NCBI GenBank assembly: GCA_019096065.1
Contig: JAGUCH010000002.1
Location: 11,358,501-11,422,500 of the forward strand
DNA from: Paracyclopina nana
Taxonomy: Eukaryota; Arthropoda; Copepoda; Cyclopoida; Cyclopettidae
Direction of reading: 5' to 3'
DNA: 64,000 nt
Position numbers and translations under genes: made by a program. Position 1 is the first letter of the stretch. Every line of letters begins with the position of its first letter. Under the pieces are notes generated by a model. That model saw nothing but the letters and a program-made list of their open reading frames with translations, did not search any database and was not told the DNA's origin. Positions 21,901 to 53,403 of the stretch are shown here, in pieces.

Positions 21901-24900
21901 GTTTGGGTCACTAGAATTGAATATTTTGGAAAAGTTCATAAAATGTCATTTTTAGAGCTTTGGCTGGGATTTCCAAAACTGTCTTTGGTTTGGCTAAAAG
22001 CCAAAGGACAACTGAGATACAAGTAACTTTCTTATTTGCAGCATTTTGACAACTTTTTAGGCTCAATTTAAAGGGCATGTTGAGGCGGATGCAATGGTGC
22101 AAAGATTACATTTTATTGATGTTCCTGCAATGAGCTATGGGTATTTCAGCAATTAGACCTCAATTTTTGGAGCTGCTCCCTAATAAACACGAAAATAGCA
22201 ACTTTGTGGCACTAGAATGGAATTTTTGGAAAAAGTTCATAAAAGAACATTTGAAGAGCTCGGGCTGCCATTTCCAAAACTGTCTTTGTTTTTGCTCAAG
22301 GCCCAAAGACAACGGAGAAAATTGCAACTTTCTTATACGCTGCATTTCGGCAAACTATAGGGAGCAAAAGACAGACAAAATGCAATAGATGGCGCTGAAT
22401 TTTTGGATCTTTGGCGTGCGTGTAAGCGTGCGTGTAAGCGTGCGTGTAAGCGTGCGTGTAAGCGTGCGTGTAAGCGTGCGTGTAAGCGTGCGTGTAAGCG
22501 TGCGTGTAAGCGTGCGTGTAAGCGTGCGTGTAAGCGTGCGTGTAAGCGTGCGTGTAAGCGTGCGTGTAAGCGTGCGTGTAAGCGTGCGTGTAAGCGTGCG
22601 TGTAAGCGTGCGTGTAAGCGTGCGTGTAAGCGTGCGTGTAAGCGTGCGTGTAAGCGTGCGTGTAAGCGTGCGTGTAAGCGTGCGTGTAAGCGTGCGTGTA
22701 AGCGTGCGTGTAAGCGTGCGTGTAAGCGTGCGTGTAAGCGTGCGTGTAAGCGTGCGTGTAAGCGTGCGTGTAAGCGTGCGTGGCGTGCGTGTAAGCGTGC
22801 GTGGCGTGCGTGTAAGCCGTGCGTGTAAGCGTGCGTGTGGCGTGCGTGTAAGGCGTGCGTGTAAGCGTGCGTGTAAGCGTGCGTGTAAGCGTGCGTGGCG
22901 TGCGTGTAAGCGTGCGTGTAAGCGTGCGTGTAAGCGTGCGTGTAAGCGTGCGTGTAAGCGTGCGTGTAAGCGTGCGTGTAAGCGTGCGTGTAAGCGTGCG
23001 TGTAAGCGTGCGTGTAAGCGTGCGTGTAAGCGTGCGTGTAAGCGTGCGTGTAAGCGTGCGTGTAAGCGTGCGTGTAAGCGTGCGTTTAAGCGTGCGTGTA
23101 AGCGTGCGTGTAAGCGTGCGTGTAAGCGTGCGTGTAAGCGTGCGTGTAAGCGTGCGTGTAAGCGTGCGTGTAAGCGTGCGTGTAAGCGTGCGTGTAAGCG
23201 TGCGTGTAAGCGTGCGTGTAAGCGTGCGTGTAAGCGTGCGTGTAAGCGTGCGTGTAAGCGTGCGTGTAAGCGTGCGTGTAAGCGTGCGTGTAAGCGTGCG
23301 TGTAAGCGTGCGTGTAAGCGTGCGTGTAAGCGTGCGTGTAAGCGTGCGTGTAAGCGTGCATAGCAATTGCGGAAAAAATAGCGCTTCTAACAAAAAGTAA
23401 ACAAAACGTTTTCTAGAATTGTAGGGAAGAAATGACAAAGAGAGCTCTCTTTTTGAGCTTGTAACAGTACAATTGAATCAAGGAACAGAATGGTACCATT
23501 TTGAGTAAGATTCATGAAAGTCAAGGAATTTTGGATCATGAGTCACATCATATCCAGACCTGAGCATGATGGATCGAATAAGACAAAATAGCCTTACTTT
23601 TTGCAGCTCAACTCTATGTGAGTTCAAAACAATCAAGTTCATCTAGTGTGGATTCAATAAAAATAGCCAGTTTTTTAACAAATTAGCCATTACATGCAAT
23701 GAATTGAGGAAAAAGTATTTTCTGGTAATCATGATGGCCATGCTATAGTTGTTGTACTGGCATGGAAAAAGCTACGAAAATTGGAAAAAGCCAGCCCAAA
23801 AGTAGTGAAGTGTCCCTTATTTTTAGAAATACTCCTCAAAAACTTGGTAATATCTTTGAATCTAGGGTTTTGATAATAGGTATCTGTAGCATAGCATATC
23901 TTTTATATTAAAAGTAGTTTAGAGAACCAAGGAGAACCAAAAGATATTGCACCTCTAATCAGAGAACCAGCCAATTTTAATTGTGAGCCCACCTAGACAA
24001 GGCAGTTCTCAGCCCACCATTGCTTCGACTAAAATCCGCTAGTAGGAATATGGCTCTTCTAGTTTCGCTCTATAGGGCTCAAATTAAAGTGCACGCTGAC
24101 CCGATTCCAACGATGTGCTTAAATCGCGGATAAAATACGTAACGGCAAAGTTACGGCCGTTTTAGTCCGTATGTATATGTGTTACTTTTTTCGCTCTGTG
24201 CTTGCATTCACGGGTGATCCCTTTGAATCTGAAGGAAAGCAATCATGGAATTTTCAATAATCACTGTAGTGACACTAAGAGCTTTTTGAAAAATCTTATG
24301 GATCATCTTGAGGGGCTATCCCTAGATAGTCACCATGCCAAAGGGTTTTGTCCTTGGGCCCCTGGGAGGGGGTTTGGGAAATTCTTATGTTGTAAAACTT
24401 TGGACCCCTCTCACAGCCATATGAAGCAACTTTTATTTACCCATTTTTAGGCCATTGTTAGGCCCCCCCTAAGGGTGTCTTTAGATATGGGATAAAAGTT
24501 GTCATCTTGCATCTGGGGTGCTTCTTTAATGAACATTTTAAGATTTATGGAAAAAATGGTCTTATTATAAAACCTTAGTTTCTTAGTGATCAACTGTAAA
24601 TACATGAACTGAAAATGAAATTTTATTATAAATATGGGGTATAAGGAGCAACTTTTGTTACTGTGATACTTAGGTAATCTCCATTTTAGGGGCAGTTATT
24701 TGACAAAAACTAATTCACTTAGTATAAAAGTACCCCCAAAAATGGTCCAATGCTATCATGACAAAAAATAAAAGTTGTTTAATATACCGTATATTTATAA
24801 TATTATTTAATTTTCAGCTCATTATCTTTTAGTTCATTTAACAAATCTCTAAGTCAAAGCAACACTGATGTATGTTTTCATGAAAGCATTCCAGAAAGTA

Positions 24901-27900
24901 ATCAAACCTCATTTTAGTAAAAAAAAAGTTGCTTGCCAAAGCCAATAATTATTCAGAGGTGAAAAATGAATTATGAAACATACAAACTTTATTCTTGGAA
25001 GTAGCACCAATTTTCAAATTAGCTAATTTACATACGCAAAAAGCTTGGGATCCCTTGAACCAAATTATGGAAAGCTTAAGAAAGCTTGACACCCAAAAAA
25101 TGCAGAGCTTGAAAAAGCTTCACACCAAATAATATTTAAACTCTTAATTTAAGGAAAAAAGGGCTGATTTTAAAATTAGCAAATACTTTTGGGAATGCAG
25201 CACTTTAAAGTAAAAGTCAATTATTTTTTTGCGATTTTTGGGTAATTTTGTCAAATCTGGTGACTAATTGCCATTTTTTTTTTTTGTAAAAATACTAGAA
25301 AAAAGCTTGAAATGTGAAATGTTGAGCTTGAAAAAGCTTGATTATAAATTTCAAAAGCTTGGGATCGCTCGAACACCTTTCGAAAAACGTGAAGCATGAT
25401 CAAGCTGGAAATTTCCGGCTCGTTCCATCACTATATATGACCCACTGTGCAGGGGCCCTAGTGAAAAAAAAACCTTTGGCACGATGAGTATCTGGTGGTA
25501 GCCTCTCAAGATGGTCCATAAGATTTCAGAAAGCTCCAGGTGCCGCTAGACTCATTTGATAATATTCCGAATTAGCGCTTATCCTTGGGTGCACACTTAA
25601 AAAATATGTCATTTCAGCCCACAGGAATTTGGAGCATGCACTGCCCTCCTTGGACGCAGCATTGCAAGCAGTCAACGCCATTGACAAAGGTGAACTGATG
25701 GAATTGAAAGCAATGAAAAATCCTTCGGAATTGGCCCAGCAGGTGTTAGAGGCAGTCTGCATTCTACTGGGCCTCAAAGCAGACTGGCAAACTGCAAAAA
25801 TGGTCATGAGTGACGCCCAGTTCATCCAGCGCCTGACAGATTTCGACAAAGACAACATTTCTGAGCAAATCAGCAAAAGAATTCGCAGATACATTGACAA
25901 CCAGAAATTCATCCCTGATGAAGTGGCCAAAGTATCCAGAGCGTGTTGTGCACTCTGCATGTGGGTGCGCGCAATCGATTTGTATGCCAAGATTTTCAAA
26001 AGCATCGAGCCCAAACGAATTCGATTGCTTCAGGCAGAATCCGAATTGGCCGAAGCGATGGCTGCGCTTCGTGAAGAAACTGACAGAGTGGCTCACATTG
26101 AATCAACGATTACCAGCATTCAATCAAATTGCCAAGAACGAATAAAACGACGGGCTAATTTAGAAGCCACAATCAAGCAAACTGCAGACAGGTTGGAAAG
26201 AGCTCAACTGCTTTCTTACTCGCTAGAAGAAGAGAGTGAACGCTGGAAATCCAGCCTGATCCAGGTGGAGAAAAATCTGCAAGTTCTGGTTGGCAACAGC
26301 GTGGTCGCTGCCATGATTGTCGCATATTCTGGCTGCTTGCACCAAAATGAGCGCAGGATTTGCGTTGACAAATGGAGAGCCATTTGCAGCAGGAATAAGC
26401 TGGAAACATCCGTGATTCCAGCCAATGACTTCCTGGCACCCATTATGACCCCACTCAAGCACTGGACCGGCAAATTCGAATTTTACTGCGAAAACTACCT
26501 GAGCATGAGGATCAGCAACAAATGGCCTTTGATACATGACCCTCATGGGTTGGCCTTGGAGGCCATGAAGGCTCAAAATGACAACCTGGTGGTGATTGGA
26601 ATGAATGATGAGAGATTGGTGGACGTTTTGAGGCAAGCTATTTCTAAAGGCCACGAAGTTCTAGTGCACGGCTTCAAATATGAAAAAGTGACGCCAGGTT
26701 TGGTCAATGTTTTCCATAGGAAGATGACCGAGAGAATTCATGCGTTTGTTGGTCTCATGGGAATCCCAATCATGAGGAAAGATCAACGGGTCATTATTGA
26801 TGGCCAAGAAGTGGTGAGCAACCAAAAGTTTCGACTTTTCCTACTGTCATCAAGCGTACCAGAGGAAAAGCTCTTTCCGCTGAAAAACTTGTACAACATC
26901 ATCATTTTCGATTACATTGCTGAAGCACTGGAGCTTCAGTTGCTGAAAATAACCATGTCGAAAATAGACCTGCCGTTTTGCAAGAAATATGAGGAAACTG
27001 TGGAAAATATAAGGCACTTGGACCACACTGTCATGGAGCGAAAGGACAACGTGCTGGAGATCTTGCTCAAGTCTGACGAAGATGTACTTGATGACAAGAG
27101 TGTCGTGGTTTCCCTCAAAGATGCCAAAGCTAAAGTGTTTGAGATCCTCAATGACTTGAACCAAGAGAAGAAGGAGATGAAAGCGTTGGAAGAGGATTTG
27201 CCTGAATACAAGAGGATCACAGTGAAACTGCGGTGTCTATTGGAGCTCCTCGATCTCATGGCAGAATCAGAGTCTCCATCACCACTGCCAAAAATAGGCT
27301 TCATCAAGTTGATAGAGAGCATCCAATTTTCCGAGGACTCCAAGAAATTTCTGCCAGTTGTGGTTGACAAAGTTTTAAGCACAGTTTTGCCTTCACTGCA
27401 ATCAAAAAACAGATACATTTTGCAGCTGAGCTGCAACATCATTTTGACTTCCAAATCCCTCGATAATAGGCTATCATCAAGGCTAGAAAGGTGTATCACC
27501 CAACTATTCAATATTCCTCAATCAGTGGCCAAATGGGAAGCAGAAATGCAGAGAATTGTTGATGACTACTTGGAAACTTGCACAGTTGAAGACCATGAAA
27601 ATAATGCAGTTCTGGATGATCAAATCAAAGCTTTGCTGGTAAAAGATGGACAAGCTTTTGGACGAGCTCTTAGAGTGGAGCAATCCCTGATTACCACATT
27701 GAAGCAACAATCTGAGAAAATGCCAATGCTGGTGTATGTGGATGCCTCTGCAGCTCTGGATGCAGTTGATGTCATTTCAGATATGGCCAGGAGTGGCAAG
27801 TTCAAGAGTCCTCAGTTCATTTCTGGTGACACAACGCCTTCGAAGGACATAGCTACCCAAATGATCAATTGCAAAAAAGAGCAACGTTGGCTGGTTGTGG

Positions 27901-28376
27901 ACAATTTTCAAAATGTGGCCAGAGGCGAGGTGCTTGAAGCCATTCCTACGGTCAATGGCAACTTCAGACTTTTCCTATTGACTCACCATGGAGCCAAGAT
28001 GCCAAGTTCAGTCCTTTTGTACTCTAAAGTATCATCAATCAGCTTGACACATGCTCCAGAGTCATTGGTGAGAAGGCCACTCTACTTTTCTCTCCTGACT
28101 TTGCGCGGATCAAGTCCAAAGGCCAAGACATTTTATGATGGCATCCTCACTCTCCATGAGTACATGGTAGAGAGCAATCCCAAGAGTGACCAGTATAGGT
28201 TCATCAGTGCTTTGGCAAGGAAGTGGCTACAGCATGGCATCACATTGTCACCATTTAAGCTGCAGACCCTCTTAAGTGAGACATATGGTTACAGTGAATC
28301 AAGTGAATCGCATGATGACGAATTGTTATTGAGTACTTTGAGAGAGATTGCTTCATACGTCAGGAATTCTCATTGA
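12914..28376 (+). CDS. divergent dynein heavy chain with non-canonical AAA1/AAA2
   Basis: Exons join(12914..13272, 13403..13489, 13549..20756, 25618..28376), 3470 aa. The N-terminal tail carries the axonemal-type phrases LTLDQWVSEY and FQTWKRVVK. AAA1 is recognisable from YGYEYNGQ, but the expected Walker A (GPAGTGKT in active dyneins) is replaced by QQDIRKTQL near residue 1371 (nt ~17215) and the Walker B FDE by QVDD. AAA2 also lacks a P-loop (FNGTTNTVRRT). AAA3 has GPRGCGKS (nt 18905) and AAA4 GPKGCGKK (nt 19829). Stalk coiled coil 1 ends exon 3; exon 4 resumes with NLEHALPSLDAAL, the microtubule-binding stalk, then AAA5 (WPLIHDPHG, FRLFLLSSS, ILDD-like VLDDKSVV) and AAA6. It stops inside or just after AAA6, so the usual C-terminal domain is missing. 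A regulatory or structural DNHD1-like chain is more likely than a motor. Intron 3 is 4.9 kb and repeat-filled. Confidence 0.85.
20840..22340 (+). repeat. tandem repeat, ~310-316-bp unit, about 4-5 copies
   Basis: The phrase TTTCAGGATATG and its variants recur at about 20852, 21165, 21480 and 21794. Between them, CAATGTGATGCCATTTCCAA and AATGCTGAGCTGGCTCTGAA recur in step. The last units diverge (21900-22340), where TTTTGGAAAAAGTTCATAAA recurs ~300 bp apart. Confidence 0.75.
22414..23358 (+). repeat. 12-bp minisatellite GTGCGTGTAAGC, ~78 units
   Basis: Nearly perfect tandem copies of a 12-mer for ~945 bp, with a cluster of shortened units (TGCGTGGCGTGCGT) at 22780-22905 and a single substitution near 23084. 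Because 12 is a multiple of three, long ORFs appear in several frames on both strands; these are not genes. Confidence 0.95.
23580..24060 (-). repeat. dispersed repeat R3, copy 2 (empty site for E1)
   Basis: Matches 5131-5483 plus 6235-6350 in inverted orientation without the 751-bp E1 insertion. The junction here reads GCCATTACATGCAATG, including the single CAT at 23688-23690 that is doubled around E1 copy b. Confidence 0.75.
25030..25432 (-). repeat. AAGCTT-rich repeat, copy 3
   Basis: AAAAGCTTGGGATC to TTTCCGGCTCGTTCCATCACTA, same orientation as 4600-5093. It lies ~185 bp before the last dynein exon. Confidence 0.65.
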
Positions 28377-29158: not shown

Positions 29159-31114
29159 TCATACGAATGGGAAAAGGCCGAATCCGAGCGTGGAAGGCTT
29201 GAAAAAGGCTGATTGGATCCGTCCACTTCTGGGTGGGTCAGAAAAGCCCGAATTGCTTCTTGGTATGCGCACTGGATTGTCCTCGGTTCCGTAGAAGATG
29301 AGCTGCCATTTCCTGAGCAGTCCTTGACCACTCCTGCTTGGCCTTTCTTCTCCCATATTGAGCACCTCCAATGTCCACTCTCCCTGGGGTGATTCACCCC
29401 AAAAGTGCACGGACATGAAAGGCCATTCTTCAAAGGTGGAGGCGAAATTGTCACGTGGCCTCGGCAGGAGAAGGGTGGACTTGGTTCCTGCTGGAGAAGT
29501 GAGGACAATCATGACGTTGCCTCTTGGGTAGAAACGTAACGAGATCTTGCACTGGACGTGCTCAAGGAACCTGACCGAGTTCAGGGTACCCTGGCAGCCG
29601 TCAGTCTTGACGCGTGCAGTTGTTGGCTGGCCAACTGCGTCTGATATGGGAGCGTTGGGCACCATGATCACTGTTTGACAAATATGCTGGGCTGGTAGGG
29701 TCTTCCATGTGGCTGCCAATTCAACCATCTTGCCAGCATCCATGAGACCGTAGCCGAACTTGTGGGAAAACTGGCGCCCCGCCCCGTTCCTATGCCAGCC
29801 TGGTTCCTCCAAAAGTGGCTCTGGCTTGGATGACATCACTACCAAGTACTGCATGTCTCTCCACGTGAGGCTGGGATTGGCCTCCAAAGCCAGCGCGCAC
29901 ACTCCTGCTGCAATTGGAGCACTGGCTGACGTTCCAGTGTGTTCGGAAGTGCAAATGTGGTCTGGCCTCAGCCTGGCATCCTGGTCCACGGTGGCGATGC
30001 TGCCATCTCGTCCAGGTGTACCGGAGCTGTAGGTGGTGGCCAGAGTGGATGAGCACTCTTCCAAGTACCAGGGCCTGAAACCCCCTTGGGTGGCAGACGA
30101 GATGGACAGGGTGAATATGGAGTTGGTGTACCCATCGCAGTTGCAGTTATCGGAGTAGCGACCTCCGTTGCCGGATGCCCATACAAAAATTGAGCCTTTT
30201 CCATGCCGGCCTCGGACGACGCCATTCAGAAAGGCCCTCTTGGCCAAGGGCCCTGGTCCATCCACGGTCTTGCCGTCATCCTCAGGTCCCCACGAGGCTG
30301 AATAGACGTCCACGTGGTTGGGGTTCAAGCTGAGCGCTCTTGCCTCCACTGCGTCATTGACGATGCCATCGAGCATTCTGACGCCTCCAATGCTGGCATT
30401 GAAGGCGATGCCAACGCCGCAAAATCCGTTGTTGGCGCTTGCTGCCACCTCACCCGCGCACCTGGTTCCATGCTTGTTGTCCCCATTGTCCTGAGGCATG
30501 GGATCTCCGTCGTTGCCATTGATGTCAGTGGATGCCAGGGGATCGTAGTTGTCCCTGAGGTCTGGATGGTTGTGTTGGATGCCGTCATCGAGGATGGTGA
30601 CGACGACTCCCCTGCCCGAGTAGCCTCTGTCCCAGGCTGGCTTGACGTTCATGTCAAAGCCGCCGCGCGCTCCATTGTTCAGATGCCATTGAGTGCTGAA
30701 CATTGGATCGCTGACAAAGGAGGCTTGCCTCTTGATCGAGGTCCCCTGTTTGGTGTTCTCAAGGGGCTCGTTGAAGAGAGGATCCCATAACGGGCGTTCC
30801 TCGTCTCGTTTGATCCTCCGCTTCTCAACCATCTGTTCAGCCCACTTGACCTCCGGCTCGTTGAGGAGCATCTGCGTGTGGTCGAGGCTGTGCTCCGCGC
30901 TCCTTCTCTGCAGGCGAGGATGCTCGAAGAGATAGTAGTTTTCGAGGCTGCCTATCTCGCCCAAATTGACGAAGCCATGCTTGGCCGCCAACCTCTCGGC
31001 CGCCTCGGAGCCGTGAGGTATGAACAGTGCGAACTGGTTATGGTACGTCCTTTGGGCCGAGGCCACGGTTGAGGCCGTCACGAGGACGAGTAGTTGGACG
31101 AGGCAGGTGCTCAT
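29159..31114 (-). CDS. furin-type proprotein convertase, intronless
   Basis: 651 aa in one uninterrupted exon. Signal peptide MSTCLVQLLVLVTASTVASA; inhibitory propeptide with a secondary cleavage site RLQRR (67-71) and primary site RRIKR (99-103). The subtilisin-like S8B catalytic domain has D176 (TILDDG), H215 (KHGTRC), oxyanion N316 (ASGNGG, Asn as in furin/PC1, where PC2 has Asp) and S396 (HTGTSASAP). The P domain follows (GTLNSVRFLEHVQ, GEWTLEVLN, LIFYGT). No Cys-rich domain and no transmembrane helix follow, so it is probably a soluble or luminal secretory-pathway enzyme cleaving prohormones or growth-factor precursors after paired basic residues. Coding GC is higher than the surrounding DNA. 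It may be a retrocopy, though large exons are common here. The start is the first Met of the signal peptide. Confidence 0.9.
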   Translation of the reverse strand: MSTCLVQLLVLVTASTVASAQRTYHNQFALFIPHGSEAAERLAAKHGFVNLGEIGSLENYYLFEHPRLQRRSAEHSLDHTQMLLNEPEVKWAEQMVEKRRIKRDEERPLWDPLFNEPLENTKQGTSIKRQASFVSDPMFSTQWHLNNGARGGFDMNVKPAWDRGYSGRGVVVTILDDGIQHNHPDLRDNYDPLASTDINGNDGDPMPQDNGDNKHGTRCAGEVAASANNGFCGVGIAFNASIGGVRMLDGIVNDAVEARALSLNPNHVDVYSASWGPEDDGKTVDGPGPLAKRAFLNGVVRGRHGKGSIFVWASGNGGRYSDNCNCDGYTNSIFTLSISSATQGGFRPWYLEECSSTLATTYSSGTPGRDGSIATVDQDARLRPDHICTSEHTGTSASAPIAAGVCALALEANPSLTWRDMQYLVVMSSKPEPLLEEPGWHRNGAGRQFSHKFGYGLMDAGKMVELAATWKTLPAQHICQTVIMVPNAPISDAVGQPTTARVKTDGCQGTLNSVRFLEHVQCKISLRFYPRGNVMIVLTSPAGTKSTLLLPRPRDNFASTFEEWPFMSVHFWGESPQGEWTLEVLNMGEERPSRSGQGLLRKWQLIFYGTEDNPVRIPRSNSGFSDPPRSGRIQSAFFKPSTLGFGLFPFV

Positions 31115-31500: not shown

Positions 31501-33760
31501 CTATTGCGGAGGCTGCTGCGGAGGCTGCTGCACCATGGTCAGTTGGAACATCTGGGAGTAATCCAACTGCGGCCGGAATTGGGATGTAGGCCCAGATAAC
31601 TGTATCGCGGCGGGCCCAGGCCCAGGTGGCATCGAAGTCGGCTGGAAGGCCACTGTGGGCGACGGATGTAGCGTTACGATATCTGCCCCGGACATGGTGG
31701 AAAGGCTGCTATTCCTCTCGCCAGCATTCTCGTCCTGCTTGCTGTGATGATGAGTCTGTTTGGCCGGCCGCGGCTTGTTCTTGTTGAGGGCCTCACTCAG
31801 GTGCATTTGCTCGACCACAGACAGAGACGCGTGTTTGGTTGCTATGTGCCTTTTGAGGTGATCCGGTCGTCCGAAAACGCGGTGGCACAATTTGCACTCG
31901 ATATCGGGTTTTTCGTGCGTCTGAACGTGTCGCACCAGCTGGTCCTTGTTCTTGTAGCGAAGCGGGCATTTGGAACAGGCCAAGGGACGAGTCGGGTCGT
32001 GCAGCTCTCGATGCCTCGCCAAAGATTTGTCCGTGCGAAAGGTCAAGTTGCACTCGTCGCACCTGTGCACTCGCTCCTTCCGCGCTTTGTGGGTCATGGC
32101 ATGGGAGTAGAGGTCGGAGCGGACTTTGAACAGCTTCCCACATTCCTCACATGGAATGGAAGGCTTCAGGTTTCGGTGCTTTCGCAGCGTGTGCGAGTCC
32201 ATGGCCATTTTGGTGCGAAAGCCGAGACCACACTCGGTGCATATGAAATTCTTGGCGTCAGTGTGGATGAGGTAGTGCGTGTTCAGCTCGCCTCTCATCT
32301 GCAAAAAGCAGTTCCGAGTAATCAAGATAGTCGAATTATTTTTTTCTCTTTCACGAAATATTGAAACTATATTTAATTGAGAGGAGTCGAAAACTTGCAG
32401 CTGGTTTTTGATGCTTGAATTTGGTGGATAACGGAAACTTGTCTCGTATGTTGCCATTTATTGACCCTTTATGTCAAGGCCGAATAGGCTATAAAGTAAA
32501 GTTGCCTTCCCCAAACCCGCTCTAAAATTGATCGTGGCACCTCCCGCTGTGCATGCAAAGTAGCTAAGTTGAGCCGAGCTGGAATTTTAGGAAGCAAAGA
32601 TATGCTTAAAACGAGGAAACGATCAGTTCTTTTGACGTACTAAATACAATGGTCAATATACTTTAGAAGCTAGCGTAGCGTGTGGTTTGGGCAGCAATTG
32701 CCGAGAATTTGCAAATTGGCTCGCGCGCATCCATTTGTAGCATAACTGTGTTGGTAGGATCTCAATTTACCTTAAAAGCCCTGTCACAGCCTTCGTACGC
32801 ACACTTGAACTTTTTTGGCAAATTCGAGTGCATGCGCACGATGTGGGCGCGCAAGATGCCGATTTTTTTGAATGTCTTTCCACAGTGCTCGCACGTGGAT
32901 CTTGATGGGTACTTTTCATTGGGATGCTCTTTGTGCCACTTCAAGTGATTCGTCATGCCTGCCTTGAGCTGCAGGCTGCAATGAGGGCAAACGTAGAGGT
33001 TCAAGTCCTCATCAAAAGTTTTCCTTGCTTCCGCTGACAGCTTGGTGGGTTTGGCTTTTTTCGCTCGTTTGTGCTGCTGCACAATTGGGTAGTCTTCTCC
33101 CGAAAAGCTATCATCATCTGCATCATCATAGTCCTCGTCAAACTGGTTTTCCTCTGTAGTCTCTTCGTCTTGGTTATTATGGTTGAAAATATCATCTTCG
33201 ACCTTGACTGCAGGCTTCGACTCGCCAGCCTGGTGGGACAAAAGGTCAAGCTTTTTGTCAAACAGGTCCAGATCAACATCAAACAGGTCCTCTTTTTCTT
33301 CTTCGTCGTCGTCGTCGTTGTCATCATGATTGTACTGTTTAGCCAAGCTGCAGTCAAACGGGGCTAAAAAGTCTTTTTGAAAGAGCTGTAGAATATCTTC
33401 GAATTGCTGCTTGTATGGATCGTTTGGAAGTAGAGGTTGTGGCTTGAGTATTTGCTCGATGAACTTGGTCATGTCATCAACCTATCAAGTAGAAGCTGAA
33501 GTATTATTCTGTCGCATTATTAAGCAGGCATTTCATACTTGGAAGTCGGGAAGCAATATGTTGACATCCACTTCTGCTGAAAGGTAAACGCCCAAGGTTC
33601 TGAAGAGTGGGCTTATGGCTGCTAGAATCAACCCAGGCACGTGTACGTCTCCATTGTGACATTTGAGGGCTACGTCACAATGCTCTCCTGACTGGACCAT
33701 TTGGGAGATGCTCCTCAAAATGTCGGTGGTTAAATCGGGCGGAGATTCTAGCAATGGCAT
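31501..33760 (-). CDS. BTB-like/C2H2 zinc-finger protein A (last gene of operon)
   Basis: Exons complement(33760..33539, 33481..32771, 32298..31501), 576 aa. The N-terminus is a short BTB-like core (CDVALKCHNGD..LILAAISPLFR..ILLPDF). An acidic linker (YNHDDNDDDDEEEKED) follows, then eight C2H2 fingers including CPHC, CEHCGKTFK, CTECGLGFR, CEECGKLFK, CDECNLTFR, CSKCPLRYK and CKLCHRVFG, and a Pro/Gln-rich tail ending PPQQPPQ. The intron between exons 2 and 3 falls inside finger 3, between its Cys pair and His pair, exactly as in paralogs B, C and D. A 3' acceptor (TTTCTTTCAG, AG at 33803-33802) lies only 27 nt after the stop of gene B, so the mRNA is probably trans-spliced. A nuclear DNA-binding regulator by family. 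Confidence 0.85.
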
Positions 33761-38295: not shown

Positions 38296-39027
38296 AATTA
38301 ACTTGAGTCAACAATTCACTGTCAAAACAAAAATAGGAATTGAGGGCTTCTGCAGCTATCTGAGCTTGATCTGTTGTTCTGTGTTATGGTGTCAGGTGTT
38401 CCATTCTGAAATTGGCCACAGTTAACGCTTGAAGAGTCATTTTTAGTTTGGTTGCACTCTGCTTAACCCTGGCACTGTCTAGTGATGCTTCACATTAGCT
38501 GTAGCCTAGTTATTAAGTTGTCACTTGGCACTGAAAATTATTTTTGTTTGACACTTCACCTAACTTCAAGTTTGAAAAATATTTCCTGCATCTTATCGCG
38601 TTTACAATTCTTAGTTTTTATTCAATTTGTGCTAATCACTCTATTTCATGTGAATTTGAGCGCCTTTTAAAGATCAACTCGGTTCTTGACTGGTCTTTTT
38701 GATGCAGCGAGCTTATCATATTCAGGCTCGTCATGCTATACTTTTCGAGATTTACTACCCTTAAATTAATTTGATAACTTTGCATTAGCAGTGTAGATTT
38801 TGCAATTTTGTAGCAAAGGATTAACCTGCGCAAACAGTGCTGTTTGTCTGAAGCTTTGAAGGAGATATTTTTTCATAATTAAGGCTGGGGTTAAAGTCGA
38901 TGCATTAGCCACTCGTTCTTTTGTTTACGTTCTCGTACGCCTACTACTGAAGTGAAGCCCTCTTCAAGTTCCAGTTGTTGCTCAAGAAGACACACAGTTT
39001 CGCTCGGCCTTGATTGAAATCGGACAG
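38296..39027. promoter_or_regulatory. divergent promoter region between the two probable operons
   Basis: No coding region. Operon D-C-B-A leaves leftwards and the selenoprotein operon rightwards. A 5' UTR exon of the selenoprotein gene probably ends at 39027, before GTAAGTCAAA. I see no convincing TATA box. Confidence 0.45.
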
Positions 39028-39125
39028 GGTAAGTCAAATATTACTTTAGGCATAAGCGCACGCGCCGTCGGTCCTTCGCCAACTTGTTCCAAAGGTCATT
39101 TGTTGAGGCGTCATCATTTCTAGAA

Positions 39126-39992
39126 ATGAACGTCGGAGCAATAACTGAGGCTACTAAAAGCCTCTCTGACATTTTGTCCAACCTCAACAGCCTTTTGCTA
39201 TCGGATGAAGGCCAATCCAAGCTGTCCAATCAGCCAGGTGCAGTTGTCTTCCCGTCCATTGGCATCTTTGCGGAATTATTCGAAAAGCACGGTGTCACTA
39301 CCAGAGATGACTTAGAAGCTGTCTTCAAAAGAGAAGTGGCCAAAGCTGGAGAAGAAGCCGAAGAGGCAGTTGAGGAATTTTGGAAAATTGAAGACTCTTG
39401 GGATTCAACTTTGGTGCGCGTTGACCAAAGCTGGAAAAAAGGAGCGGCATCAGTTGTTATCAACTCGGTTGGCTTGGAAGCTCCTTTATCTGCTGTCTTG
39501 GTGAATGCCAGAACCGGATTGGAAAGTACTTTGGAGAAAGTTTTGTCTGATTGCGATCAGCCCAAAGCTCACTTGGTGCTTTTGCGACATCTTTCCTGAC
39601 TCCCTTGACGTGAGCATGTGGCAATGCTGGCTGAGAGTGGACTTTCCTCAGCTGGCATCGCTCCCGTGGTCATTTCTTTTTCTGAAATAGAGGCTGTCAA
39701 GGAGTGGATCAATCAGACTGGGACCCCTTTCCCTGTTTACGTTGATGCAGCCCGAGCCACGTATTCCGCATTTGGGCTTGAGAGATCCATGATGACGTTT
39801 GCGTTGAAAACAATGCTCTACTACGCGCAAAAAGTGGCTTCCAAAGAGGAGCTGCCAAACATGAATATTCACGAAGACACTGTTCAGCTTGGGGGAGACT
39901 TCACTGTGGAATGTGCTACCAAGCAAATGACGTTTTTGTATCCCAGCAAATTTGCTGCTGACAGGCCTACCCTGCAATCGATTTTGAACTAA
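39126..39992 (+). CDS. SELENOL: selenoprotein L-like peroxiredoxin-fold protein with UxxU motif
   Basis: One coding exon, 288 codons, read through two in-frame TGA codons at 39597-39599 and 39606-39608 (residues 158 and 161), giving LLRHLS-U-LP-U-REHVAML. This is where PRXL2/AhpC-TSA-like relatives have CxxC. The downstream part is a typical thioredoxin-like fold of that family (IAPVVISFSEIEAVKEWI, FPVYVDAARATYSAFGLERS). The N-terminal ~150 residues are helical. Selenoprotein L is known from fish and aquatic invertebrates and forms a diselenide; that is family knowledge. TGA-to-Sec recoding is supported by the SECIS at 40018-40100. The ATG at 39126 follows an acceptor (TCATCATTTCTAG) whose donor GTAAGT is at 39028, so there is a 5' UTR intron. 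The alternative, two nonsense mutations in a pseudogene, is unlikely given the SECIS and the intact frame on both sides. Confidence 0.87.
39597..39608 (+). promoter_or_regulatory. two Sec (TGA) codons, U-L-P-U redox motif
   Basis: TGA CTC CCT TGA. The frame before (from 39126) and after (to 39992) is the same and fully open. The codons replace the two cysteines of the CxxC motif expected at this position of the fold. Confidence 0.87.
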
Positions 39993-40017
39993 AAATGATA
40001 GATGACTGAGGTGGAGC

Positions 40018-40100
40018 GTTTATCATGCACATGACGTTGCTTTGTTCAAGAGCTGAAGATATGACGGCATGCAATGCGACTGATGAAAAGCATAATAAAC
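40018..40100 (+). promoter_or_regulatory. SECIS element (type II)
   Basis: Helix I pairs GTTTATCATGC (40018-40028) with GCATAATAAAC (40090-40100), one mismatch. The quartet is TGAC (40032-40035) against TGAT (40081-40084). Helix II pairs GTTGC-TTTG (40036-40044) with CAAT-GCGAC (40072-40080). The unpaired AA (40048-40049) lies 12 nt after the quartet. An apical mini-stem GCTG (40052-40055) / CGGC (40065-40068) makes it type II. All canonical parts are in register, 25 nt after the stop codon. The sequence AATAAA at 40094-40099 lies inside helix I and may double as the poly(A) signal. Confidence 0.88.
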
Positions 40101-40132
40101 TCAAACTCAAAACATCTCCCTTTTTGTTGCAG

Positions 40133-40705
40133 ATGCCTCCCATCAACGAGTCGGGGGTCGTAATGAACGGTGTGGACAATGCTGAGGAAGAGGGCCCAGC
40201 ACCGAGAAAGTTCACCTTTCCTTCCCACCAGTATCATATGGTGAATCTGGCCAAGATGTGCCAAGAGAACAAAGAGTACACCGACTGTGTCATTCGCGTC
40301 GGAGAGGAAGAGCTTCGTGCACATCGACTCGTTTTGGGGTCAGTCAGCCCATTCCTCAAGCTAGTGTTTGCTGACATTCCTTCAACCTTGTCTGAGGCTA
40401 CCATACTGGTACCAGGAGTGAAAAAGTGCGTAGTTAAGGCGCTCCTTGACTTTTTCTACACAGGTCAAATGACAGTTGACCGCCAAGATACCAGTGATTT
40501 GCAGCTTCTCATCGACACTCTCCAAATTGATCCTGGCCTCATCACAGTTGACGCAGTTCATCAGCCGGCATCTCCCAATGAAGAAAAAGTTGCCAATGAG
40601 GAGGAAGCTGCGAACAAAAATGCAAGCAGTGAAAAGCCTTCTGCTTCTGAAGAAAGTACAAATGGTACTCGTAAGAGAAAAGCCAGCTCGCAAAATGATG
40701 AAGAC

Positions 40706-40740
<35 letters not shown>

Positions 40741-40792
40741 CTCGCAACCCTCTACTGCCAAAAAGCCTCATTCAACAACCACTGAGAATTAA
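40133..40792 (+). CDS. BTB-domain protein with poly-Asp tail
   Basis: 219 aa, single exon. Start chosen at the ATG directly after TTTTTGTTGCAG (AG 40131-40132); the longer upstream frame runs through the SECIS and is not expected to be translated. BTB/POZ domain at ~25-125 (YHMVNLAKMCQENKEYTDCV, ELRAHRLVLGSVSPFLKLVF, ALLDFFYTGQMTV). The tail is Glu/Lys-rich with TRKRKASS, a likely nuclear signal, and a run of ~14 Asp. No zinc fingers or Kelch repeats follow. The isolated BTB may act by dimerisation or as a CUL3 adaptor; the partner is unknown. Second cistron of the selenoprotein operon. Confidence 0.8.
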
Positions 40793-40866
40793 AATACAAT
40801 GCCACTCACCCCACCCGTATACTATAATCACGTGACTGATTCTATGCACTTTATTTGCAGATTCAT

Positions 40867-41303
40867 ATGGCTGAATTACGGCAACTCATCGCTGACATAG
40901 CCTCCAATGTAAATGGCATCCTTGGCATTGTGATTTCTGACAAAGAGGGAGCATGTAAGTCTCCAAATTTTATTTTAAAAGTAAGATTGTTGATGTAACT
41001 GTTTTTGCAGGCGTTCTCAAAACCATGATTGATTCGGGGAATCCAATCGTTGATGGTTGCTTCCGTCACCAGTTTTTATCTGTCTACGGTACATTGTCAG
41101 AACATGCAGCCAAAATGTGCTTGGGCCCCACCATGTCCATTTGGGCCACGTTTGACGACTACCAAGTGATGCACCATAATCACTCTCCTCTCATCCTCAC
41201 GATCATTGCGTCAAAAGAGGCCATGACAGGTCAAATTGTCAATCTGTCAAATACTATGAAACCACTTATGAGCGATATTGCCAAAGTTGTTATAGCCCAA
41301 TAA
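40867..41303 (+). CDS. LAMTOR3: LAMTOR3 (MP1), Ragulator subunit, roadblock fold
   Basis: Exons join(40867..40954, 41011..41303), 126 aa, human protein 124 aa. It begins MAELRQLIADIASNVNGI; GIVISDKEGA, SIWATFDDYQVMHHNHSPL and TGQIVNLSNTMKPLM follow the MP1 pattern. In other animals this is a subunit of the lysosomal Ragulator complex, a scaffold for mTORC1 and MEK1-ERK signalling. The 56-nt intron splits a Cys codon. An acceptor TTTATTTGCAG ends at 40860, six bases before the ATG and 68 nt after the previous stop, so it is the third cistron of the operon. The stop codon overlaps CAATAAATAAG, a poly(A) signal. Confidence 0.88.
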
Positions 41304-41424: not shown

Positions 41425-43288
41425 ATGACAGTTCATCTGCAAAGATGTGATGATATTTCACAGTACCATGAAACGCTCGTAAACCTATCGTTTCCCATCG
41501 AAAGTGTGAAAAATGTCAAGTTAGCTCTAGCAAGCTCAGGCAGTGGAAATGTTTCTATAAGCAGCATGGTGTTGTCATGTGCTTTACCTTGGCTGAAAAA
41601 TTGCCTGATAGCAGAAGAGGAATTGGAACTCATCATTGAAAGTGATGATTCCATTGAGGAATCGACACTGAACCACTTGGCTCATCTTTTACACTTCGGC
41701 CAGTTGGCCTGCTTAAATGAAAAATCCTTGAAGGAAACCAAAGAAATAGCAAGGCTACTGAAGCTAAATATCGAAGACATGCCAACTGAAGTTAGTGAGG
41801 ATGAGGATTCAATATATAAAGAAAATGAAGATTGCTCTGACCTGGAGCAAAATGAGGAGGAGGAACCCAAGAAAGTCTTGTGCAAGAGAAGGCCAAAAAT
41901 GAAACGAGTCTTTGCTGCAGATCTCTCTGCTGAGGAGCTAACTTGCAAAGTGTGCCAAAAGGAGTTCACAGCATTGTACAAACTGAAAATCCACTCTATG
42001 ATTCATTCAGCCACTCCTCCTTTTGTGTGCAGCTTTTGTGGGCGTGGCTTCAACAACAAGTACAAGATGAGGGGCCATGAAAAAAGACACTGCTCCTCTT
42101 CACCCACAAAATATCTAGCTCCGAAAAGCTCATGGCAAGACACAGTTTTGGACAAGGGGATCACCTGTGAAAAATGTGGGGCTGTCTTTGACACCAAGAA
42201 GGCGAGGAGAGAGCACATTTTAGCAGCTCATCCCTTATATCACGCATCTACTCACTCGTGTCCTCTTTGTCAAAAGGTGTTTAAGGCTCTCAAAGGCCTC
42301 AACAGCCATATGGCCAATGTCAGGTGTCAAAAACCAAAGAAGCCTTTGGGCTCTGGAACTGACTCAAAGACTTTTAGCTGTGATAAATGTCCCACTGTAT
42401 GCTCCTCTCGTAAAAGTCTCAAAATTCATGGGAGAACTGCTCATTTGGAGGACGGCGAGGATGCTCTACCTTACAGATGTTTAACGTGTGGAAAAGCATT
42501 CTTGAAGCAGTCCTATCTTGAAGAGCATCATAATAGGTTCCACGTACTAATAAAGCCTTTTCCTTGCATGTTCTGCCCTAAGAGGTGTGCTACCAAGCAA
42601 GATCTAGACAGGCATTTGGTGTCACACAGGGGAGAGACAATTTTCCAGTGCTCGTTTTGTCCCAAAAGCTTTGTCCATCGAGCTTCCTTGAAAAAGCATC
42701 ACAGAGGCCATTTGAGGGAAAGGCCATATCAGTGCCATCCATGTGGCAAAAGTTATGGCTTGCTGACAGTACTACACAAGCATCAAAAGTCTCACGAGCG
42801 AAAGGTACCTATTGATTAAGAGACCTGTTTAGGCATATTTGCTGATTTTTCCAATCTTTAGGGTGACAAGACAAAGATTGTCACCCCAGCAAAAGGACAA
42901 AGAGGCGCTTTATCCTATATAGACTTTGCTGAGGGTGAACCACCTGCCATACCCTCATCTCACACCATCACCAACTTAAGCCAAATGCAGGTGGAAATAG
43001 AAGACAACCATCAAAGTAAGCAATTTCAAGTAAAGCTACTGAATATAGACTATATGTTCTTGTTCAGCAGCAGGGTATCAAGACCATAACAATTATATGA
43101 CAGAGGAGCAACACCAATATCCCGAGCAAAGCTACAATTACCACGTGGTTGAGGCTGGTCATCAGGAAAACCTCAGGTTTGCTGACTTGACTGAAACCGA
43201 GTCGATTGCCATGGACATCCTGGGGCTCCTTGGGGATCAGCAATCGTCTGCTGTGCGTCTCAACGAAAATCCCATTGATAAGCTATGA
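41425..43288 (+). CDS. nine-finger C2H2 zinc-finger protein
   Basis: Exons join(41425..42804, 42862..43015, 43068..43288), 584 aa. The N-terminal ~110 residues resemble a degenerate BTB (ISSMVLSCALPWLKNCLI, LELIIESDDSIEES). An acidic linker and basic CKRRPKMKR follow. There are nine fingers: CKVCQKEF, CSFCGRGF, CEKCGAVF, CPLCQKVF (last ligand Cys, C2HC), CDKCPTVC, CLTCGKAF, CMFCPKRC, CSFCPKSF and CHPCGKSY. The C-terminal ~120 residues lack domains. Introns are 57 and 52 nt. The finger arrangement differs from the A-D family, so it is not a close paralog. A nuclear regulator by family. Confidence 0.82.
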
Positions 43289-48107: not shown

Positions 48108-49864
<1,757 letters not shown>

Positions 49865-50853
49865 TATGAGATTAGAGAACAGATGTCTTTTTTTTTAGCG
49901 GAGTTGCCTTGTCAAGGCCCTTTGTCGCAATGTATTGAACTAACAGTCGATTTTGGGAATTGTAGGAGGCGGAGGAGGGCACAATCATGCATGTACAGCG
50001 CCTGTGCGACAGCTACTCTTGCTCCTGCTGCTCCAGTCTGCTGTTGCACCCGTCACTTTATCTTGCCCCGGCACGAATTATAAATTGCAAACTTATCGAT
50101 AAAATTCGCCTTTGAATGTATCTAAAGTCGATCGAGTGATTAATCAACTAGGAGAAATTAGCCGCGGGAATTTCACGGAAAAGTTATGTTAAGTTGCTTT
50201 ATCACCAGCGTTAATAATTATCAGAGGCGTAAACATTTTCCGTTAGGCGTTTTCGCAGAATGTTTGGCCTATTTCTGCTTTGACAAGCATAAAAGCTATG
50301 TAGGCCACTGCACTGGCCACATTGCATTGTAAACACACGTTGCCTGACTTCGTACTCAGGGTGACCAGATGTGGCTATTTATAGCCAAAGTGGCTATTTT
50401 TGACCCGTGTGTGGCTACGGAAATTTAGCCCGAATAGCCATAGCCATTTGTGGCTATTTTTAAAAAGTCCGAAAATTTGATATTTTTACTTAATAAACGC
50501 TTGAAAATCATCAAAAAAGCAGGGGAAAAAATGAAATTTGCAAAAATGGCTGACTTTTTCAAAAATCTTTTGCCATCATTATAAGAAGATAATCATAAGT
50601 AAATACATGATTTCATCCACAACAATTCCCAAAAATGGTAAAATTTTTCGTAATAACTAATTTTATCATGAAAATTCCTAAAAATGTGGCTATTTTTTAC
50701 CAATTTGTGGCTATTTTGAGCAATTTTTCTGAAATAGCCAAACGTGGCTATTTTAGGGGAAAATCTGGCTACAACCCACTCAAATTTTCTGGTCACCCTG
50801 TTCGTACTCGAAGTAGAAAAGACTTTTTTCCGGCGTTACGTCACGTTGTCAAA
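49865..50853. promoter_or_regulatory. divergent upstream region of KATNAL1 and ZNF598
   Basis: No coding region. Its right half is taken up by a hAT-like MITE (50357-50800). The remaining ~480 bp next to KATNAL1 and ~50 bp next to ZNF598 must hold the promoters. Confidence 0.45.
50357..50800. mobile_element. 444-bp hAT-like MITE with 8-bp TSD
   Basis: Ends CAGGGTGACCAGA and TCTGGTCACCCTG are exact inverted repeats. The 8-bp direct repeat TTCGTACT flanks it (50349-50356 and 50801-50808), the hAT signature. The inside repeats GTGGCTATTTTT many times and has no transposase. The insertion ends 53 bp before the ZNF598 ATG. Confidence 0.88.
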
Positions 50854-53403
50854 ATGGGGCCGAAGAGAGATGGCCCGAGTCGAAGAGGAAGACCCCGACG
50901 AAGGATCGATGTGACTCAAACTCCTGTACCTGAGCGAGAGAGGCTTTTTTCTGAGTGCTCTGAAGATCAGTGCTCGGTTTGCTGGAATGACATCAAAATA
51001 TTCGCAGTTGGTTTTTGCAATCATACCGTCTGCTATCAATGCATCACCCGCATGCGAGTCCTCTGCTCGCAAAACGAATGTGCCATCTGCAGGCAAGACA
51101 TGCCCAAAGTTATTCTCACCAACAATCGTGTCAGTTTTGGTGACTTTGACGACAAGGTCATGCTGATGGAAAGGAGGCATCATATTTGCTTCGAAGATGA
51201 AGCTATCAAGAGAGCCTTTGAAGAGTTGCTGCAGTTCGTGTGTCCCATTTGCCAGAAAGATCAGCCTGTTGCTTTCAGGACTTTCAAGCAGTTGGATCAG
51301 CATGTGCGGAGAGAGCACGAGCTTTTTTACTGTGAGCTATGCTCGGATAATTTAAAGGTATACTAATCTTAACTAGTTTAAACATTGTGGTTGATTGATT
51401 AATTAATTATTTTATTTGTTTGCAGATTTTTCCTCACGAAAGGAAACTGTACGGCAGGTCTGAATTGGCCACCCATAGGCGCAAGGGTGATCCGGATGAC
51501 TCCTCACACAGAGGCCATCCTCTTTGCCAATTTTGTGAGGTCAGATATGTTGATGATGACGAGCTCTTTAGACATCTCCGACGAGACCACTTTTTCTGCC
51601 ATTTTTGTGATGCTGATGGCATTCAGGAATACTATCCGTACGCGAAAAGTCTGTTCTTCTTATTTTTTCCTCTTACATATATTCATTTTATAGGGACTAT
51701 ACGGACCTAAAGGCTCACTTCAAGCACTCGCATTTCTTGTGCGAGGAAAATAGCTGCATCAATGAGAGGTTCACTCATGCTTTTCGAACTGAACTCGATA
51801 TGAAGGCTCACAGAGCTGAGCGACACAGCGGTGCCATGAGCAAAAGCGAGGCCAAAATGAATAGATTGGTGGACGTTGACTACAACTTTAGCAGATCTCG
51901 TCAAGGAGCTTACAGCCAACATGGTCGTAGGCAGGGAAGGTCACCTAGTCCACCTCCACAATACCCCACTTCTTCGCATGCTAGCAGCAATGAAACCAAG
52001 GCAATGCCAGTTCCAGACTTGGCTCAGGATTTTCCAAGTCTCAGTGGAAGGGGAGCATCATCAGCTTCTGCCTCATCAAAATCAGGCTCGTCTGCTCAAT
52101 TGAAGCCTGCAAATATGGCCCATAAATTGGCTAAAACCACAGGGAGAAACGTCCAGTCGTGGGCAACAAGTGTTGGCAATCCCAATCTAGACGAACAGGA
52201 TTTTCCCTCATTGGGAGGTGCAAGCCAGCCCAATCATGCAGCTCCACTTACCTCCTCTTCAAATTATAAGGCATCCGTTGCTGCCAAGTCCAAGCCACCT
52301 GCAACGAAGGAAGTGAAAGGTGGCAAACCTGCTCAAGATTTTCCAGCTTTGCCTTCCAACAGTAATCCCATGCATTCCTTTGGCGCTCCAGTCTATCGGA
52401 ATATTGCTGGGCACACACCAGCCTGGGGAAGCAATAGTTCTTCGCAAAAGCCTACATCCAATCCTGCAAGCTCCTCAAAAAAGGCTGTTGCTCCCGCACC
52501 AGACTTGGATTATCCTTCCTTAGGCCGTCCCTCATCTTCTATGCTAACAACTAAAGCTAATGGTGGCTCTAGTAAATCAAAAAACAAAGGAAAAAGTGAA
52601 AGCATTCAAAGTGGAGCAGCGAATTCACTCAAAGGAAATGCTAACCTGAAATCGGCTGCCGATTTGATTTTTTCGGAAAAAAAGGCTCCGCCATCGAGGC
52701 CAAAATTTCGACCCCAACCCGAGGATGATGAGTTGGTGGACTCGAGTAGACCATTGCTGCCTGAAGATGATTTCTCCTCTGTGGAAGCTAAACTTGCTTT
52801 CATGAATTTTCAAGGGACGCCCCAAGTCGAGTCGGCGATAAAGGTTGTAACGCAGCTACCACCCAAAACGAGGCCACCAGGCTTTGGTCCTCCAGGATTC
52901 GCAAAGCACGCTAAACAAACAAACCTCGTGCCGAAAAAATTCACGTACTTGGAGCCTCCAGAATTTAGTACGAGGAACAAAAAGCTGATGGGAGCCATCA
53001 CGGAGGCCTTAGGTGGAGGAAAGTCGATCGAGCTATCCACTTTCAAGAACCTCTCGGTGCGTTTTAAAGCTTCCGAAGTGAACGCTACCGATTTCATCGA
53101 TGAATGGTGCGAGCTAGTGAATGACCCGAAAAGAATTGAGGTGGTGCTACCTGAATTAATTGCTCTCCTTCCAGACATACAAAAACAAAGGGTAAAACCA
53201 TTTTCAGCTACCTTTTTCGAATTTGATATTGATTAGCTTTTATTTCTCAGATGCTAATGGAAGCTTATGAGAAGAAGAATCCCAAGTCCAACCTTCCTTT
53301 CAAGCTTATTCCATGTGACAAGTGTGGGCAACTGTTGCGTACTGAAGACATGCGAATCCACAACGATTCGCACCTTTTAGACTCTGAATTCCCTGCACTG
53401 TGA
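50854..53403 (+). CDS. ZNF598: ZNF598/Hel2 E3 ubiquitin ligase
   Basis: Exons join(50854..51357, 51426..51637, 51694..53191, 53251..53403), 788 aa. The N-terminal RING has CSVCWNDIK, FCNHTVCYQC and CAICRQDM. C2H2-type fingers with the family spacing follow: CPICQKDQP, FYCELCSDNLK-IFPHERKLY, CQFCEVRYVDDDELFRHLR and FFCHFCDADG. A long disordered region has repeated QDFPSL/QDFPAL motifs, and the C-terminus has VPCDKCGQLL-like Zn knuckle IPCDKCGQLLRTEDM. In animals and yeast it recognises collided ribosomes and ubiquitinates small-subunit proteins. The ATG chosen is the first after a stretch of non-conserved open frame that lies within the MITE. Confidence 0.92.

Follow-up and report, generated by a model that had tools for sequence, protein, structure and literature searches.

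A probable SELENOL gene with two in-frame UGA codons and a form-2 SECIS element in the copepod Paracyclopina nana

Introduction

Few animal proteins have two selenocysteine (Sec) residues in one redox motif; selenoprotein L (SELENOL, also SelL) is among them, and a diselenide is said to have been found in zebrafish SELENOL by Shchedrina et al. in 2007. Here we describe a locus in the copepod Paracyclopina nana that we read as a SELENOL gene; it lies in a 64-kb stretch of DNA, which we call the window (assembly GCA_019096065.1, contig JAGUCH010000002.1, positions 11,358,501 to 11,422,500 of the forward strand), and the coordinates below are counted from the first base of that window. According to published accounts, SelL is a peroxiredoxin (Prx)-like protein (PMC2398784) whose two Sec residues stand two residues apart and are both served by a single Sec insertion sequence (SECIS) element (PMC3316567), and it occurs in fish (PMC3316567), in sea squirt (PMC2874816) and in five of the six invertebrates tabulated in PMC3473315. 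An earlier reading of this DNA, made from the letters alone and referred to here as the sequence-only reading, had described SelL as patchy among aquatic animals; patchiness is a stronger statement than that table will bear.

The window gene has in common with animal SELENOL, as described from fish, amphioxus, annelid, sea anemone, Trichoplax, sponge and sea squirt, the UxxU motif, one SECIS element and a Prx-like product, the comparison being one of descriptions. Our interpretation, to which we attach a probability of roughly 0.94, is that the locus is a SELENOL gene with one form-2 SECIS element and that both UGA codons are recoded to give a Prx-like protein with the active site Sec-Leu-Pro-Sec.

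Results

A single frame on the forward strand runs from 39126 to 39992, stop codon included; it comprises 288 codons, ends at TAA and is interrupted in frame by two TGA codons only. These are codon 158 (39597..39599) and codon 161 (39606..39608), which we read as Sec158 and Sec161, the first and second positions of UxxU, and each has C as its next base (context TGAC). The motif around them is R-H-L-S-U-L-P-U-R-E-H-V. Given the base composition here, a further stop would be absent from the 286 remaining codons with a probability of 2.2e-7. The sequence-only reading had proposed just this arrangement, with the U-L-P-U spacing, and it is borne out on the sequence. When the predicted protein was searched against the genome (92 Mb, 10 contigs), the one match was the SELENOL locus itself.

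The protein matches the NCBIfam model NF040769 (SelL-related redox protein, SelL_rel_redox) over residues 135-287 with an E-value of 4.9e-30, and homology is present on both sides of the TGA codons. The segment 3' of the second TGA, taken alone, still matches NF040769 (E 3.7e-19) and enters the profile at position 41, just past the motif, which indicates that the frame does not change across the TGAs; the segment before the first TGA gave no match to this model by itself, and little of the domain lies in that segment. The link to the SelL family that had been suggested from the letters therefore holds both for the whole protein and for the part behind the second TGA. Two Pfam models also match, PF13911 (AhpC-TSA_2) at E 1.7e-12 and PF00578 (AhpC-TSA) at E 1.4e-6, so that a SelL-related/AhpC-TSA redox domain can be placed at residues 135 to 288, approximately (39528..39992). 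By sequence alignment, the UxxU motif occupies the CxxC position of the Prx/thioredoxin-like domain. Proteins of PF13911, which we take to be the group of PRXL2 and SELENOU, belong to the same Pfam family as the window protein, but the match to that model spans residues 173-268 only and excludes UxxU; SELENOU carries a single Sec. Upstream of the domain is an N-terminal extension of about 134 residues (39126..39527) that matches no family above cut-off: profile searches with it returned only PHA_gran_rgn models, at E-values of 0.0046-0.015 and far under their cut-offs.

The two catalytic positions were compared with those of bacterial relatives. A motif pattern gave two matches, one of which (L022) is a family member; at the place of the other (L023) no family member is encoded. 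The family model was then run on 201 genomes of the phylum of L022, the single bacterial phylum sampled, and 47 of them matched at E <= 1e-20 (49 matches), as did none of 14 control genomes; at E <= 0.001 the model rang in seven of the 14 controls, in none of them over its cut-off. Among the 30 best of the 49 bacterial matches, nine (L029, L031, L032, L038, L041, L048, L050, L051 and L053) have TGA at the first catalytic position and 21 have Cys there; 29 have Cys at the second, the exception being L042 with Ala. Apart from the Ala locus, then, the bacterial forms are CxxC or UxxC, and UxxU was found in none of the 30. Both window TGAs fall on the Cys/Sec columns of these relatives, that one Ala excepted, as had been anticipated. 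A tRNA-Sec is present in eight of the nine UxxC genomes and in nine of 20 Cys-form genomes (the genome of L035 being left out).

In an alignment of 18 of these 30 sequences with the window protein (19 in total), R154, H155, positions 158 and 161 (TGA counted as C), R162, L218, G257 and D279 are invariant. The closest of the 18 are L029, L031 and L032 (38%, 36% and 35% identity; the other 15 are at 20-29%); all three carry RHLGULPCREHV, with TGA at the first position, and are the same as or near the window protein at QLGGDF and DRP. The bacterial NF040769 proteins thus share RHxx[U/C]xxCRE, Q-x-x-G-x-F and a near-full domain match with the window protein, whereas the matched bacterial stretches have no counterpart of its 134-residue N-terminal part. 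Scanning bacterial genomes and viral contigs for peptide patterns of the window protein confirmed no relative, and tblastn with that protein gave three weak plasmid records (E 0.3-1) and no phage record.

That all nine bacterial Sec forms use the first position only bears on a variant of our reading, in which the gene is a SELENOL with one TGA usually decoded, the other leading mostly to termination or near-cognate read-through, and the diselenide a minor form. It may also be said in favor of this variant that a lone SECIS element presumably faces a demanding task in the decoding of two UGAs that lie three codons from each other. However, nothing would account for TGA at the second codon if it were not read, and we consider the variant highly improbable.

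The invariant residues also bear on the possibility that the locus encodes an ordinary protein from whose transcript the TGAs are spliced out. If introns within the coding stretch may be 40-400 bases long, there are 255 GT-AG pairs that enclose both TGAs, and the frame stays open with 120 of them. All 120, however, delete at least codons 151-163, including R154, H155, positions 158 and 161 and R162, and the spliced product would be without an active site. The sequence-only reading had allowed that an intron removing 39597-39608 would overturn it; judged on the sequence, that route appears to fail because each frame-keeping intron would also take out the invariant R-H-x-x-C-x-x-C-R motif. We regard the chance that the TGAs are spliced out as close to negligible.

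A SECIS element was identified in the 3' untranslated region (UTR), 25 bases past the stop codon (40018..40100), by pattern scan, shuffles and a check of coordinates. Helix I is formed by 40018-40023 and 40025-40028 pairing with 40090-40093 and 40095-40100 (6+4 pairs); the quartet consists of TGAC at 40032-40035 and TGAT at 40081-40084; helix II is formed by 40036-40040 and 40042-40045 pairing with 40071-40074 and 40076-40080 (5+4 pairs, one U-U mismatch); the AA lies at 40048-40049, 12 nt past the quartet; and the apical mini-stem (40052-40055 with 40065-40068) has four pairs and a nine-base loop, which makes the element form 2. Every one of these parts is where the sequence-only reading had put it. 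By pattern, the 3' UTR holds one eukaryotic SECIS. An AATAAA poly(A) signal (40094..40099) shares bases with the 3' strand of helix I, and the SELENOL mRNA therefore probably ends shortly behind it.

Across both strands of the window the pattern scan gave eight candidates, among which the SELENOL element ranks second by energy. The candidate with the best energy (43150-43206, forward strand) has no gene tied to it and is probably there by chance. In a shuffle test that was not blind and that used slightly wider edge limits than the window scan, 231 of 20000 dinucleotide shuffles of 39993-40130 contained any candidate and seven contained one as good.

Two glutathione peroxidase (GPX) genes of the same genome served as controls, each with TGA at its active site: NVASK-U-G (L008/L017/L018) and NTASL-U-G (L019/L020). 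A looser version of the scanner found a SECIS-like element behind each of them and none at the locus of a GPX without TGA (L016). The energy z-scores of the two elements are -3.38 and -1.21, and only the first was seen by Rfam (26.3 bits, cut-off 35). Energy z-scores were of no help here, one of the two reaching only -1.21. A second weak match to the Rfam SECIS_1 model (23.6 bits) lies at L009 (G000:C4:2975663-2975722, minus strand), where the scanner found nothing.

The sequence-only reading had also held that this animal keeps the machinery for selenium insertion, and had named SBP2, eEFSec and tRNA-Sec as the parts to look for. All three were found, together with SecS and SelD/SPS: (i) a tRNA-Sec with anticodon TCA scores 78.8 bits, with a model that also rings in 14 of 14 control genomes, above its cut-off in five; (ii) SecS exons score up to 193.4 bits, under the whole-protein cut-off, with a model that rings in one of the 14 controls; (iii) exons of a SelD/SPS gene reach E 1.4e-28, under the cut-off, the Sec/Cys active-site part being outside the covered region; (iv) eEFSec matches the solved factor 5izk at E 7.9e-67; and (v) the RNA-binding domain of SBP2 matches solved SBP2 (7zjw chain B) at E 7.4e-34. 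The parts of the host's Sec-decoding machinery that were searched for are thus present.

Several other matches were set aside. A second tRNA-Sec match above cut-off (L002, 47.7 bits) is a tRNA-Ser according to ARAGORN. The strongest match to the SelB model (L059) and L060-L066 were considered as eEFSec, and their translations read as other translational GTPases; L059 presumably resembles mitochondrial EF-Tu. From their translations, L059, L062 and L064 are three separate EF-Tu-like loci of mitochondrial type. The genome also contains at least 80 matches to the cuticle domain Chitin_bind_4, which point to an arthropod.

Downstream of SELENOL, two further genes follow head to tail (39993-41303), each separated from the gene before it, by 140 and 74 bases respectively. 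The next gene encodes a BTB-domain protein (40133..40792, forward strand, start codon by reading), and its ATG at 40133 stands immediately 3' of a polypyrimidine tract and CAG (40130-40132). The third is LAMTOR3 (40867..41303, forward strand; exons 40867-40954 and 41011-41303, limits by reading), which matches solved LAMTOR3/MP1 at E 1.2e-15 and starts six bases past a CAG, whose AG (40859-40860) is a candidate 3' splice site. Each downstream ATG is therefore 0-6 bases past a candidate 3' splice site. Upstream of SELENOL, 39029..39123 (GTAAGT ... TTTCTAG) may be a 5' UTR intron or an outron with its 3' splice site, and ends two bases before the SELENOL ATG. Elsewhere in the window, C2H2 zinc-finger open reading frames (ORFs) lie on both flanks of the locus (31501-33472, minus strand; 41425-42819, forward strand), and Pfam matches mark parts of a dynein heavy chain (13535-28376, forward strand), a furin-like proprotein convertase (29159-31114, minus strand), a katanin p60-like gene (48731-49759, minus strand) and a ZNF598-like gene (50635-53236, forward strand).

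Discussion

Given the findings above, the best reading of the window gene is that it is an orthologue of SELENOL, a family already known from sponge to fish. A number of observations nevertheless weigh against this reading. With respect to the SECIS element, the Rfam SECIS_1 model gave no match in 38700-40800 up to an E-value of 10, and the element is absent from the two weak genome matches of that model (the genome-wide scan scored 133 of 2603 first-look candidates); its folding energy does not stand out (z -0.18 with flanks, -1.58 for 40018-40100 alone); and the scanner used for the shuffle test was designed after the element had been seen. With respect to the protein, the NF040769 score of 104.4 bits is below the curated cut-off of 120, and we regard the window protein, on its sequence, as a clear homologue of NF040769 that is not to be filed within that bacterial subfamily. 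Finally, the single SecS and SelD exons fall under the cut-offs of their models. Each of the 14 controls also has matches to the SelD and SelB models at E <= 0.001, which makes those two models, taken alone, weak evidence.

The alternative to which these observations most directly speak is a decaying or non-functional SELENOL, in which both TGAs are plain stops and at most a fragment is made. Consistent with decay are the ordinary energy of the SECIS element and its being missed by Rfam, and also that the SELENOL transcript and protein are known here from DNA sequence alone. What speaks against decay is that the frame has kept 288 codons without another stop, that the family match goes on in frame past the second TGA, that a SECIS pattern is in the right place and that the machinery parts sought are present. 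We judge decay to be very unlikely, and favor a functional SELENOL.

By analogy with known SELENOL biology, SBP2 bound to the single 3' UTR SECIS, together with eEFSec carrying Sec-tRNA(Sec), would recode both UGA codons. The product would have a thioredoxin fold and be peroxiredoxin-like, with Sec-Leu-Pro-Sec where its relatives have Cys-x-x-Cys, and the Sec pair, cycling between a diselenide and two selenols, would be its redox center. From its place in the family, the protein should be a thiol/selenol oxidoreductase.

The setting of the gene, described here for this one species, comprises a poly(A) signal overlapping the SECIS and, at distances of 140 and 74 bases, the BTB gene and LAMTOR3. 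Close-packed downstream genes that begin with a 3' splice site would need a 5' exon from elsewhere, and the simplest reading of the SELENOL-BTB-LAMTOR3 arrangement is what, from the sequence, looks like a trans-spliced operon. More specifically, this may be an arthropod operon that has SELENOL as its first cistron and is resolved by spliced-leader trans-splicing, the SECIS being fused to the poly(A) signal; we put this forward tentatively, at somewhat short of even odds. If so, AATAAA would be part of helix I, and 3' end formation and Sec decoding would share bases within the 140-base intercistronic gap. A rival possibility is alternative cis-splicing from an exon before 39030. Pyrimidines followed by AG and a nearby ATG are common in the window, and candidate splice sites by themselves therefore prove nothing. 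A literature search combining selenoprotein, operon, spliced leader and SECIS surfaced only a paper on Drosophila gene models. PMC7986045 records spliced-leader trans-splicing for copepods and amphipods and gives operons as unreported there as of 2021; the operon reading, if true, would add operons to these groups.

There is precedent for rich selenoproteomes outside insects, as a centipede genome holds 20 selenoproteins and the full machinery (PMC4244043). The literature searched, which included parts of PMC5330540, PMC2500217 and PMC4244043 and stopped short of the centipede selenoprotein table, yielded no statement of an arthropod with SelL; given this partial coverage, we make no claim to the first arthropod SelL. 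Gene callers for which TGA is a stop would break SELENOL up or drop it, and the mechanical ORF list does return its frame in two pieces (39084-39599 and 39618-39992), in line with what had been predicted for standard annotation. A clean copy of SELENOL in a compact genome provides a well-supported sequence for tracing the retention and loss of this family.
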